From positions 62,001-126,000 of the forward strand of contig NZ_SHKP01000004.1 in the NCBI RefSeq assembly GCF_004217215.1: 64,000 bases of DNA, in the 5' to 3' direction. Below the pieces are notes generated by a model that was given only the letters and a program-made list of their open reading frames with translations, did not search any database and was not told the DNA's origin. The first letter of the stretch is position 1. Each line of letters starts with the position of its first letter. Positions 9,422 to 21,159 of the stretch are shown in pieces. Source of the stretch: Rivibacter subsaxonicus (GTDB lineage: Bacteria > Pseudomonadota > Gammaproteobacteria > Burkholderiales > Burkholderiaceae_C). The position numbers were made by a program, and so were the translations under genes.

Positions 9422-10990
9422 TCAGCGCAGGAACAGCCGGTACACGGGGTTCGTCGTTTCCTCGACGAAGGGGTAGTCGAGCTGCTCGAGAAAGGTCTTG
9501 AGCGCCTTGGCCTCGCCGCGCGGAACCTGCAGGCCGACCAGGATGCGGCCGTAGTCGGCGCCCTGGTTGCGGTAGTGGAACAGGCTGATGTTCCAGTCGG
9601 GGTGCATGCTGGAGAGGAACCTCATCAGCGCGCCCGGCCGCTCCGGAAAGATGAAGCGGTACAGGCGCTCATCCCTGGCCAGCTCCGATCGACCGCCCAC
9701 CATGTGGCGGACATGGCTCTTGGCGAGTTCGTCGTGGGTGAGATCGACGGTGGCGAAGCCCTGCTTCTGGAAGCGAGCCGCGATCTGCGCCGACTCACCG
9801 GGCTTGCTGGTCGACAGGCCGACAAAGATCTGTGCGATCTTCGTATCGCTGATGCGGTAGTTGAACTCGGTGACCTGGCGGTTACCGGGGCCGATCAGTT
9901 CGCAGAAGCGCTTGAAGGAGCCGCGCTCCTCCGGGATCGTCACCGCGAACAGCGCCTCGCGCTCCTCGCCGACCTCGGCCCGCTCGGCGACGAAGCGCAG
10001 GCGGTCGAAGTTCATGTTGGCACCGCAGGTGATCGCGACGAAGGTCTGGCCGCTGCAAGCGTGGCGCGCCGCGTACTGCTTGATCGCCGCCACGCCCAGG
10101 GCGCCGGCCGGCTCGAGGATCGAGCGGGTGTCCTGGAACACGTCCTTGATCGCGGCGCAGACGGCGTCGGTGTCGACCACCTCGAAGTCGTCGACCAGCG
10201 CGCGCGTCAGCCTGAAGGTCTCCTCGCCCACCGTCTTGACCGCGGTGCCATCGGAGAACAGACCGACGTCGTGCAGCGTGACTCGGCGACCGGCCCTGAC
10301 CGAGCGCACCATCGCGTCGGAGTCCACGGTCTGCACGCCGATCACCTTGATCTCGGGTCGCACCGCCTTGATGAAGGCCGCCACGCCCGAGATGAGGCCG
10401 CCGCCGCCGATGGCAACGAACACCGCATCGATCGGCCCCTGGTGCTGGCGCAGGATCTCCAGCGCCACCGTGCCCTGGCCCGCGATCACGTACGGATCGT
10501 CGAAGGGATGGACGAAGGTCAGGCCGCGCTCGCGTTCGAGTTCGAGTGCGTGAGCGTAGGCATCGGAGTAGCTGTCGCCGTGCAGCACGACCTCGCCGCC
10601 GAAGCTCTTGACCGCGTCGATCTTGAGCTTCGGCGTGGTGACCGGCATCACGATCACCGCCTGCGTGCCCAGGCGCTTGGCACTGAGTGCCACGCCTTGC
10701 GCGTGATTGCCGGCCGAGGCGCAGATCACGCCGCGCTTGAGCTGCTCCGGCGTGAGGTGCGCCATCTTGTTGTAGGCACCGCGCAGCTTGAAGCTGAAGA
10801 CCTCCTGCTGGTCCTCGCGCTTGAGCAGCACCCGGTTGCCGATGCGACGCGAGAGCTGCGTTGCCGGCTCCAGCGGCGACTCGATCGCGACGTCGTAGAC
10901 CTTGGCGGTCAGGATGCGCTGCAGGTAGCTCATCGCGAGCGCGTCGCGCTGGCCATTGCCACTCGTGCTGCGGCTCTTGCTGCGGGGCAT
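9422..10990 (-). CDS. ilvA: Threonine ammonia-lyase, biosynthetic (IlvA)
   Basis: PLP-dependent enzyme that deaminates threonine to 2-oxobutanoate, the first committed step of isoleucine synthesis. The catalytic domain occupies about residues 22-330, with the PLP lysine in EVFSFKLRGAYNK, the CASAGNHAQGVA phosphate-side motif and the glycine loop AIGGGGLISG. Two ACT-like regulatory domains follow (LFAVTIPEERGSFKRFCELIG and YRFIFPERPGALMRFLS), the long form inhibited by isoleucine. Start at ATG 10990 is fixed by AGGAGGAGA about 6 nt upstream; 522 aa. The upstream region carries an RNA element ending in a strong terminator (see 11085-11178), so ilvA is either expressed by read-through or from its own promoter. 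Confidence 0.96.
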   Translation of the reverse strand: MPRSKSRSTSGNGQRDALAMSYLQRILTAKVYDVAIESPLEPATQLSRRIGNRVLLKREDQQEVFSFKLRGAYNKMAHLTPEQLKRGVICASAGNHAQGVALSAKRLGTQAVIVMPVTTPKLKIDAVKSFGGEVVLHGDSYSDAYAHALELERERGLTFVHPFDDPYVIAGQGTVALEILRQHQGPIDAVFVAIGGGGLISGVAAFIKAVRPEIKVIGVQTVDSDAMVRSVRAGRRVTLHDVGLFSDGTAVKTVGEETFRLTRALVDDFEVVDTDAVCAAIKDVFQDTRSILEPAGALGVAAIKQYAARHACSGQTFVAITCGANMNFDRLRFVAERAEVGEEREALFAVTIPEERGSFKRFCELIGPGNRQVTEFNYRISDTKIAQIFVGLSTSKPGESAQIAARFQKQGFATVDLTHDELAKSHVRHMVGGRSELARDERLYRFIFPERPGALMRFLSSMHPDWNISLFHYRNQGADYGRILVGLQVPRGEAKALKTFLEQLDYPFVEETTNPVYRLFLR

Positions 10991-11084: not shown

Positions 11085-11120
11085 AAAGAAAAAGGGCCCG
11101 ATGCCGTGAGGCATCGGGCC
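11085..11120 (-). terminator. Strong intrinsic terminator upstream of ilvA
   Basis: On the minus strand a perfect 11-bp stem (GGCCCGATGCC, 11120-11110, with GGCATCGGGCC, 11105-11095) closes a 4-base loop and runs straight into CTTTTTCTTT. The T tract exists only in the minus direction. It lies about 95 bases before the ilvA start and ends the candidate small RNA described at 11085-11178. Confidence 0.9.
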
Positions 11121-11178
11121 GAATCCACCAATGGAGGAGGTGGAGGAGACAAGCGGTGCGGATCACTTCCATCCGCGT
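11085..11178 (-). ncRNA. Candidate small RNA with tandem anti-Shine-Dalgarno motifs
   Basis: About 94 nt, from a predicted +1 near 11178 to the intrinsic terminator. Hairpin 1 is a perfect 6-bp stem GCGGAT/ATCCGC (11176-11171 with 11163-11158, loop of 7). The middle is pyrimidine-rich and contains TCTCCTCC then CCTCCTCC (11149-11133), both complementary to Shine-Dalgarno sequences; TCTCCTCC is the exact complement of GGAGGAGA in the ilvA ribosome-binding site. The 3' part is the 11-bp terminator. This two-hairpin layout with an exposed CUCCUCC loop is the look of trans-acting small RNAs that block translation starts. A role as cis leader for ilvA is the alternative. No database comparison was possible. 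Confidence 0.65.
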
Positions 11179-11184
11179 GGGCAA

Positions 11185-11213
11185 AGTGTAGAACGTAGAT
11201 TGGTGCAACGCAA
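11185..11213 (-). promoter_or_regulatory. Sigma-70-type promoter for the small RNA / ilvA leader
   Basis: On the minus strand, -35 TTGCGT (11213-11208) and -10 TACACT (11190-11185) are separated by exactly 17 bp. Predicted transcription start is about 11178. It drives the small-RNA candidate and possibly ilvA beyond the terminator. Confidence 0.65.
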
Positions 11214-11291
11214 CAAGTTCGCTCGACAGCACGTCGAAACCGATTCGCCCCGGTGGGCACAATGCGCACCCATCGACCGTGGGAGTGATGA

Positions 11292-11717
11292 ATGGAATGC
11301 ACCGTGCGCTGGCAGCCCGAAGCCGGCATGGCCTTCAACGCCGAGACCGGCAGCGGCCACCTGCTCGCGATGGATGGCGCGCCCGATGGCGGCGGCCGAA
11401 ACCTGGCGCCGCGGCCTATGGAGACCGTGCTGGCCGGCACCGGAGCCTGCGCCGCGTACGACGTGGTGCTGATCCTCAAGCGCGGCCGCCACGACGTGCG
11501 CGGCTGCGAGGTCAAGCTCAGCGCCGATCGGGCCGAAACCGATCCCAAGGTGTTCACCCGCATCCACATGCAGTTCGTCGTGCGCGGCAAAGGGCTGGCG
11601 CTGGCGGCCGTCGAGCGCGCGGTCCAGCTATCGCACGAGAAGTACTGTTCGGCCAGCGCGATGCTGGCCATGACCGCGGAGATGACGACCAGCGTCGAAC
11701 TGGTCGAGGTCGGCTGA
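11292..11717 (+). CDS. OsmC family protein
   Basis: Small alpha/beta protein of the OsmC/Ohr superfamily (141 aa), whose members reduce organic hydroperoxides with two redox cysteines. Both cysteines are in the expected places: GTGACAAYDVVLILKRGR (central helix) and KYCSASAML near the C-terminus. Sequence style is nearest the YhfA branch, whose physiological substrate is not established, so a specific peroxidase role is not claimed. The gene stands alone on the plus strand between the ilvA leader and coq7, with a CACAAT -10-like hexamer about 25 bases upstream. Confidence 0.85.
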   Translation: MECTVRWQPEAGMAFNAETGSGHLLAMDGAPDGGGRNLAPRPMETVLAGTGACAAYDVVLILKRGRHDVRGCEVKLSADRAETDPKVFTRIHMQFVVRGKGLALAAVERAVQLSHEKYCSASAMLAMTAEMTTSVELVEVG

Positions 11718-11725
11718 CGCCCGGA

Positions 11726-12376
11726 TCAGAGGTAGTGCGCGGTGGTGGTCATCACCTTGGCCGCGCCACGCATGACCCAGCGTGCCGGCGCCGGCAACGG
11801 TATCGCGCCGGCCCTCTCGGCATCGAGCGCGTGGCGCGCCTCGTCGTCGCGCATCGCGGTCACCACCGCGCGTGAGGCCCGATCGTCGCTCGGCAGGCGG
11901 TCCAGGTGCTCGTTCAGGTGCTGCTCGACCTGACGCTCGGTCTCGACCACGAAGCCCAGGCTCAGGCCGTCGCCGGCACGCCCGGCGAGCAGGCCGATGC
12001 CAAAGGCTCCGGCATACCAGAGCGGATTGAGCCAGCTGGTGCGGCCGCCGAGTTCGGCGATGCGCTTTTCGGTCCAGGCCAGATGATCGGTCTCGTCGCG
12101 CGAGGCGGCGTCGTAGTGGGCCTTGAGCGCCGGGTTGCGCGTCGCCAGGGCCTGCGCCTGGTAGAGCGCCTGGGCGCAGACCTCGCCGACATGGTTGACG
12201 CGCATCAGCGCCGCGGCCTGCGCGCGTTCGTGCGCAGGCAGTGCTCCATCGCCGTCGTCCTTGGCCGGCACCGGGTACGGACGTGCTGCCGAATGACTGC
12301 CGAACAGGGTGCGCAGCGCGTTGTCGGCCGCGGCGATCAAGTGATCGCTGGCGGAACGGGTCGAATGGGAACTCAT
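11726..12376 (-). CDS. coq7: 2-polyprenyl-3-methyl-6-methoxy-1,4-benzoquinone hydroxylase (Coq7)
   Basis: Di-iron carboxylate monooxygenase that adds the C6 hydroxyl in ubiquinone synthesis at the inner membrane face. The ferritin-like four-helix bundle shows the iron ligands in two halves: [15 protein letters not shown] followed by [14 protein letters not shown], and [16 protein letters not shown] followed by [13 protein letters not shown]. Length 216 aa is normal for the bacterial family. ATG 12376 was chosen as the first ATG in the conserved frame; no strong ribosome-binding site is seen. Convergent with the OsmC gene, divergent from the porin. Confidence 0.93.
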
Positions 12377-12503
12377 GATTCTTGGGAGTGACAGATTTTT
12401 GACAGAGGGCGGCAGCCGCGGGCCAGTTGTGGACGGGCAACGAATGGGCCGATCTGTCGTGCGGATTCTCGTCCCCGACACAGTCAGGCGCTGCAATTAG
12501 GGT

Positions 12504-21082: not shown

Positions 21083-21159
21083 GGCGCTTTAGCTCAGTTG
21101 GTTAGAGCGATGGAATCATAATCCACAGGTCCGGGGTTCGAGTCCCTGAAGCGCCACCA
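21083..21159 (+). tRNA. tRNA-Met (anticodon CAT), CCA encoded
   Basis: 77 nt with a 7-bp acceptor stem (GGCGCTT/AAGCGCC), D-arm GCTC...GAGC, anticodon loop ATCATAA with anticodon CAT, a T-arm with GGTTCGAGTCC, and encoded CCA end. The outermost anticodon-stem pair is A-C, leaving four good pairs. The acceptor begins G-G and lacks the C1-A72 mismatch of initiator tRNA, so it is an elongator. A CAT anticodon could also be the lysidine-modified Ile tRNA; the overall sequence looks more like Met. Confidence 0.92.

Follow-up and report, generated by a model that had tools for sequence, protein, structure and literature searches.

A Standalone RF02278 Small RNA of Rivibacter subsaxonicus with a Candidate PhaR Operator over Its Promoter and a Sibling Element in the Phasin 3'UTR

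Introduction

A 64,000-nucleotide stretch of the Rivibacter subsaxonicus genome (the window) carries, upstream of the threonine ammonia-lyase gene ilvA, a compact set of signals on the minus strand from 11213 to 11085, which raises the question of what RNA is made there and what controls it. A first-pass annotation, made from the sequence alone, had described a promoter, a 5' hairpin, two CU-rich anti-Shine-Dalgarno (anti-SD) motifs and an 11-bp terminator, and had read them as a trans-acting small RNA (sRNA) with ilvA as a possible target. All of these features are present. That account of the locus, however, overlooked a PhaR-type operator over the −35 box and a sibling RNA in the 3'UTR of a phasin gene. 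We consider it likely, with a probability of roughly 0.78, that the locus encodes a standalone RNA that blocks ribosome-binding sites (RBSs), carries a PhaR operator over its −35 box, is switched by PHB and works alongside the phasin 3'UTR sibling.

Results

The −35 hexamer TTGCGT (11208–11213) and the −10 hexamer TACACT (11185–11190) are separated by the 17-nt spacer that had been claimed for them; these and all further coordinates of the element are on the minus strand. A generic promoter scan, which demands at least 9 of 12 matches, reports no promoter and misses the −35 box; by our own count, the hexamers match at 7 of 12 positions. We accept the −10 box because of its conservation in orthologs. 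With distances of 10–23 nt allowed, a −10 box could be placed in 61 orthologs of the window's family, and in 59 of them TAnnnT lies 17–19 nt from the centre of the palindrome described below, TACACT being the commonest form (16/61). Transcription is predicted to start at the A at 11178, 7 nt 3' of the −10 box, which would give an RNA of about 91 nt.

The predicted transcript begins with a variable 5' segment that folds into a 6-bp hairpin (GCGGAT/ATCCGC, 11158–11176) and is probably removed by processing, by analogy with the reported conversion of S17L to S17S (PMC11722255). The double-hairpin body follows at 11088–11151. It opens with Site 1, the anti-SD motif TGTCTCCTCC (equivalently UGUCUCCUCC; 11142–11151), the leading 7 nt of which are single-stranded in the predicted fold; UGUCUCCUCCACCUCCUCC likewise begins at 11151. 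A second CU-rich motif, ACCTCCTCC, occupies 11133–11141, and the predicted loop of hairpin 1 (11124–11144), which spans 11138–11130 (UCCUCCAUU), holds Site 2. The element closes with an intrinsic terminator stem-loop of 11 pairs (11095–11120) and a T-rich tail (11085–11094). For the predicted 91-nt RNA, the folding energy is −43.8 kcal/mol (z = −5.56), and for the 64-nt form it is −34.2 kcal/mol (z = −7.51); in neither case does any of 200 shuffles reach this stability.

The structure is conserved in an alignment of 68 of the 71 family sequences (64 distinct; L168, L181 and L182 were left out). Site 1, TGTCTCCTCCA and the leading 11 nt are invariant in all 68, and standard pairs make up 95.7% of the pair cells. 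The covariation score is 0.353, as compared with 0.164 in shuffles, and none of 500 shuffles reaches it; nine pairs are changed on both sides, a number that 68 of the 500 shuffles also reach. Most of the covariation falls within the terminator stem. In hairpin 1, one pair covaries, from CG to UA in 8 of the 64 distinct rows, and the remaining pairs are invariant.

The curated Rfam family RF02278, "Betaproteobacteria toxic small RNA", covers the element end to end (positions 1–64 of 64) and scores 63.9 bits, above its gathering score of 50 (E = 1.5e-10 for the 64-kb window). The 5' CU-rich site, the hairpin with a CU-rich loop and the terminator that characterize this family are all found. Matches to NmsRb (RF02877, 36.4 bits) and anti-hemB (RF02837, 23.7 bits) fall below their cut-offs of 52 and 49.5, respectively. 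The RNA had earlier been likened to the CcsR type of Rhodobacter; RF02278 is the better label, and no CcsR- or CuckOO-named family is found among the five Rfam matches of the element. The only other Rfam match above gathering score in the window is a tRNA gene at 21083–21156.

Of 200 genomes sampled from the window's family, 170 have an RF02278 match in a covariance-model search, 141 of them over the cut-off; of 150 sampled across the order Burkholderiales, 99 have one, 59 of them over the cut-off. The window sRNA is a new member of a known family and is the standalone RF02278 RNA of this genome; the RNA itself is of an already known kind. Transcripts of the family have been published from Burkholderia cenocepacia (ncS03, ncS05, ncS27 and ncS62; PMC5688073), Bordetella pertussis (S17; PMC11722255) and Herbaspirillum seropedicae (the Hsnc RNAs; PMC7011215). 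The proposal of an sRNA that ends in a terminator, exposes anti-SD motifs and probably acts in trans is supported. In two genomes, RF02278 has greatly expanded (G206, nine matches; G254, eight), and most of the copies read there lack a PhaR-type site.

The genes around the element connect it with S17. On the plus strand, an OsmC-family protein gene (11292–11717; PF02566, 60 bits) diverges from the sRNA, and it is followed by coq7 on the minus strand (11726–12496; NF033656, 301 bits). S17 of B. pertussis is reported to sit between a glycosyltransferase gene and coq7 (PMC11722255). At a further locus (L039), the sRNA is identical to that of Achromobacter insuavis over 64 nt, and coq7 and then osmC lie upstream. 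On the basis of this arrangement and the reported place of S17 beside coq7, the window sRNA is the probable positional counterpart of S17.

The −35 box of the window sRNA is overlapped by the palindrome TTGTTGCGTTGCACCAA (11200–11216, minus strand), a putative PhaR operator. It fits at every position the Ralstonia eutropha PhaR consensus YTKNTGCRNYGCANMAR, deduced from published phaP1 and phaP3 sites (PMC12849132, 2025), and its other strand, TTGGTGCAACGCAACAA, contains the H. seropedicae PhbF motif TG[N]TGC[N]3GCAA, for which a DNase footprint has been reported (PMC3206438, 2011). The phaP1 sites BS1 and BS2 are described as adjoining the −35 and −10 boxes (PMC12849132). Across all 3.94 Mb of the genome, the R. 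eutropha consensus has six occurrences, as compared with none for the reversed pattern. Two of the six, with genes judged by eye, are the sRNA promoter and the 5' side of a phasin gene. The genome also encodes PhaR (TIGR01848, 145.6 bits), and the presence of both a phaR gene and a consensus operator at the promoter suggests that the sRNA belongs to the PhaR regulon. The other four places (L061, L065, L066 and L067), again judged by eye, concern a PQQ-dehydrogenase-like gene, the upstream side of an icmF-like mutase gene, a PhoD-like gene and the vicinity of an ABC-transporter operon.

The sequences upstream of the family orthologs are diverse except for a palindrome near TTGYTGC-N3-GCARCAA over the −35 box. 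Its core, TGCRNYGCA, is found upstream of 62 of 70 family orthologs and is absent from the other 8. The distance from the palindrome centre to the RNA varies between 51 and 117 nt and that to the −10 box is fixed, so the site tracks the promoter rather than the start of the RNA. Scores were obtained for 71 upstream sequences of the family, none longer than 180 nt, drawn from 31 loci read at length and the next 40 on the score list; L168, whose upstream is cut short by a contig end, is counted among the 71 and absent from the 70. Mismatches to the consensus number 0 in 15 upstreams, 1 in 18, 2 in 21, 3 in 12, 4 in 2, 5 in 2 and 6 in 1. At most two mismatches are thus seen in 54 of 71 and three or more in 17. 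With the reversed pattern, by comparison, only 1 of the same 71 has at most two (2 in 1, 3 in 14, 4 in 31, 5 in 24 and 6 in 1), and background windows of the same loci reach this level in 22 of 464 cases. Phasin promoters, which are known PhaR targets and served as the positive control, show 0 or 1 mismatch in 46 of 49. The extra RF02278 copies mostly lack the site, with at most two mismatches in only 6 of 34. PhaR control is therefore not a property of the RF02278 family as a whole, and a model in which PhaR governs every copy was dropped.

The presence of phaR within the window's own family proved uninformative as a test, with 195 of 200 genomes positive. Because phaR is near universal there, we tested co-occurrence across the wider order, where the comparison is partly confounded by phylogeny. 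Among 68 upstreams from the order, at most two mismatches are found in 32 of 43 from phaR-positive genomes as compared with 3 of 25 from phaR-negative ones (Fisher p = 6.7e-7, overstated, like the other order-wide p values, since related genomes are not independent). The same comparison by family means (21 vs 12 groups) gives p = 3.8e-4. The H. seropedicae motif likewise separates the two classes (p = 1.2e-5), and no difference is seen with the reversed pattern (p = 0.40). The 68 upstreams comprise 28 order-level loci and 40 from the higher-scoring part of the match list, mostly one per genome with four genomes counted twice, and phaR-negative denotes a genome with no match in the phaR search. 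Exceptions occur in both directions: 11 of the 43 phaR-positive upstreams have more than two mismatches, and three phaR-negative ones (G320, G297 and G242, all kept in the counts) have at most two. G320 and G297 are drafts that are 85% and 87% complete, and the other sampled sRNA carriers of their groups have phaR; G242 is a complete genome.

A pattern built from the published −35 and −10 hexamers of S17 and their spacing was matched at ten loci, which belong to Bordetella hinzii, two Bordetella genomospecies, two Achromobacter and five MAGs, B. pertussis itself being absent. In 10 of 10 the −35 box continues as TTGCAT(C/T)GCACAAA, of which the left half was built into the search pattern and the right half was not. 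The S17 promoter is reported to be active without BvgA in vitro, and its authors postulate an unnamed repressor that they expect to be low in the Bvg+ mode (PMC11722255). The palindrome at these promoters makes PhaR a concrete candidate for that repressor. Five of the S17-type loci (L068, L069, L072, L074 and L076) also carry a second PhaR-type palindrome, with 0 or 1 mismatch, 58 nt upstream of the start of the −35 box. Such tandem palindromes are found in spacers beside phaR as well.

The second RF02278 match of the R. subsaxonicus genome is sub-threshold (37.9 bits) and lies 117 nt after the stop of the phasin gene (L002/L213; G000:C5:167091-167164, minus strand). This anti-SD double-hairpin RNA of the phasin 3'UTR is a conserved element. 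In 40 of 50 family phasin loci, a TGTCTCCTCGG-like start, a hairpin and a terminator are found 5–170 nt after the stop; the count derives from 41 regex matches, one of them false (L234), and one of the nine loci without a match (L239) is cut by a contig end. Elsewhere in the phasin loci, TGTCTCCTC occurs 0 times in 189,626 and once in 191,830 strand-bases. In an alignment of 35 of the 40 elements (the divergent L207, L217, L223, L233 and L246 being excluded), 98.5% of the pair cells are paired and both sides have changed in 13 of 15 pairs, each value being above all 500 shuffles. A covariance model built from the 35 gives 51 matches in 49 of 60 whole family genomes, and 49 of these matches, in 48 genomes, are located on the 3' side of a same-strand phasin domain match, at distances of 92–411 nt. 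The training sequences account for 35 of the 51 matches; of the other 16, 14 are phasin-linked and 2 are not. No Rfam family scores above its gathering score at the phasin elements of the 12 sources searched (10 family phasin loci, L121 and L123).

Elements of this kind extend to other families of the order, with RF02278-like matches about 0.3–1.1 kb from a phaR domain in six genomes (L118–L123, from G221, G267, G273, G310, G315 and G325), several of them at the 3' end of a phasin gene; the spacer beside phaR carries operator-like sites. In L118, L119 and L121, the element follows an open reading frame (ORF) that passes the Pfam phasin cut-off; the ORF of L120 narrowly misses this cut-off, and no Pfam phasin match was obtained for L122, where the ORF is partial. 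In L123, the element and phaR diverge from each other, and two operator-like sites lie in the interval. A TPP riboswitch (67.6 bits) lies downstream of the phasin 3'UTR element at L121:2575-2685.

Discussion

The proximity of ilvA (9422–10990, minus strand; TIGR01124, 826 bits) invites the reading that the element acts on this gene, as a special target or as its leader. The SD sequence of ilvA, GGAGGAGA (11002–10995, minus strand), is complementary to Site 1, and the match to the RBS, GGAGGAGAC, is exact over 9 nt in the window, but this complementarity is not conserved. With start codons guessed by the best SD, an exact complement of at least 7 nt occurs at only 3 of 30 ilvA starts, one of them the window's, as compared with 3 of 31 osmC starts and none of 30 coq7 starts. 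We therefore reject ilvA as a privileged target, and these comparisons offer no support for a conserved ilvA-specific circuit. The constant neighbourhood would be explained if the RNA were instead a 5' leader or attenuator that acts in cis, with a leader peptide or the terminator governing read-through. Among 31 family loci read at length, a selected set made up of the window's own and the 30 best-scoring relatives, ilvA adjoins the sRNA in 30, so some read-through into ilvA may occur, and an open frame, MEVIRTACLLHLLHWWI, starts in the RNA. That frame, however, runs without a stop before the terminator, and a closed ORF of at least 10 amino acids is present in 7 of 61 orthologs, which led us to discard the leader peptide. 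A mere ilvA leader is made unlikely by the strong terminator and by the order-level loci: of 28, a single one, itself a member of the window's own family, has ilvA beside the RF02278 element. The relatives published as free transcripts also speak against this reading, which we rank as the least probable of those considered.

The palindrome raises two further alternatives. Since it is also upstream of the divergent osmC in the window's family, and osmC adjoins it in 31 of 31 family loci examined, it might serve osmC, with the sRNA promoter merely overlapping. The site is, however, locked to the −10 box of the sRNA, and in L039, where coq7 separates the sRNA from osmC, a site with one mismatch stays 119 nt before the sRNA; an osmC operator is accordingly very improbable. 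Somewhat less remote, though still unlikely, is the reading that the sRNA is an ordinary RF02278 member and that a regulator other than PhaR, or RNA polymerase alone, occupies the −35 palindrome. PhaR binding is here deduced from sequence, TGC-N3-GCA palindromes could serve another factor, and the site is missing from most of the extra RF02278 copies. Against this stand the near-perfect occurrence of the same motif in the family's phasin promoters, its rarity in the genome and the way it tracks the presence of phaR.

We thus favor an anti-SD RNA under PhaR control. In this model, the sRNA would be transcribed at about 91 nt and probably trimmed to a form of 64–67 nt that starts with UGUCUCC, and its CU-rich sites would pair with the RBSs of many mRNAs and lower their translation. 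Without PHB synthesis, PhaR would repress both the sRNA and the phasin promoter; nascent PHB would titrate PhaR, as has been described for phaP1 (PMC12849132), and both promoters would be released during carbon storage. The two anti-SD RNAs would then rise, block the RBSs of transport and catabolic mRNAs and damp carbon uptake and catabolism. We extend the RBS-blocking step to the standalone RNA because its published relatives act in this manner; for the phasin element, no published relative was found. More broadly, and with more reserve, we lean toward the view that across Burkholderiales PhaR couples carbon storage to translation through two anti-SD RNAs, one of the S17/ncS27 type and one from the phasin 3'UTR, and that PhaR is the repressor postulated for S17.

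RF02278 RNAs are widespread, and earlier work has treated them as "toxic" or virulence-mode regulators. With a PhaR operator they would respond to carbon storage, a signal that fits both the reported bias of targets toward transport and carbon metabolism and the higher level of ncS27 in glucose medium (PMC5688073). The phasin 3'UTR element would be a further small RNA linked to storage, derived from the granule-protein mRNA and of interest to bioplastic producers. In full-text searches of an open-access library, with subscription papers mostly outside it, we found no paper that joins PhaR to RF02278, S17 or ncS27 and none that describes a phasin 3'UTR sRNA. The PhaR operator on the sRNA and the phasin 3'UTR sibling therefore appear to be new, whereas the RNA itself is known.

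The closest known systems are the "double-hairpin RNAs" of B. cenocepacia, ncS03, ncS05, ncS27 and ncS62 (PMC5688073, PMC4603805), which share sequence and structure with the window RNA over the whole model and likewise have CU-rich sites complementary to RBSs. ncS27 is reported as a processed RNA of 92 nt, similar to the long form of about 91 nt predicted here, and its overexpression slows growth (PMC5688073). These two texts contain no mention of PhaR and no word starting with "polyhydroxy"; PMC5688073 reports a motif, left unnamed, that three copies share upstream, and regards the regulation as unknown.

S17 shares with the window RNA the RNA type, the coq7 neighbor and RBS pairing (PMC11722255). 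It depends on Hfq, is shortened from 190 to 67 nt by RNase E and represses genes through pairing with RBSs; its leader is 123 nt, as compared with the 27 nt predicted for the window RNA (PMC11722255). Its reported expression is Bvg-linked, and PhaR, PHB and phasin are absent from the text of PMC11722255. Since S17 did not impair the exponential growth of E. coli, "toxicity" varies within the family. The Neisseria RNAs NmsRa and NmsRb (RF02877) also carry two CU-rich stretches complementary to RBSs but form a tandem pair (PMC5688073), unlike the standalone window RNA. Finally, control of an sRNA by PhaR has a precedent in MmgR of Sinorhizobium meliloti, a PhaR/AniA-repressed small RNA tied to PHB (PMC12542648, PMC9049629). 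MmgR differs from the window RNA in that it is alphaproteobacterial, is another RNA and is reported to act on phasin expression (PMC12542648, PMC9049629).
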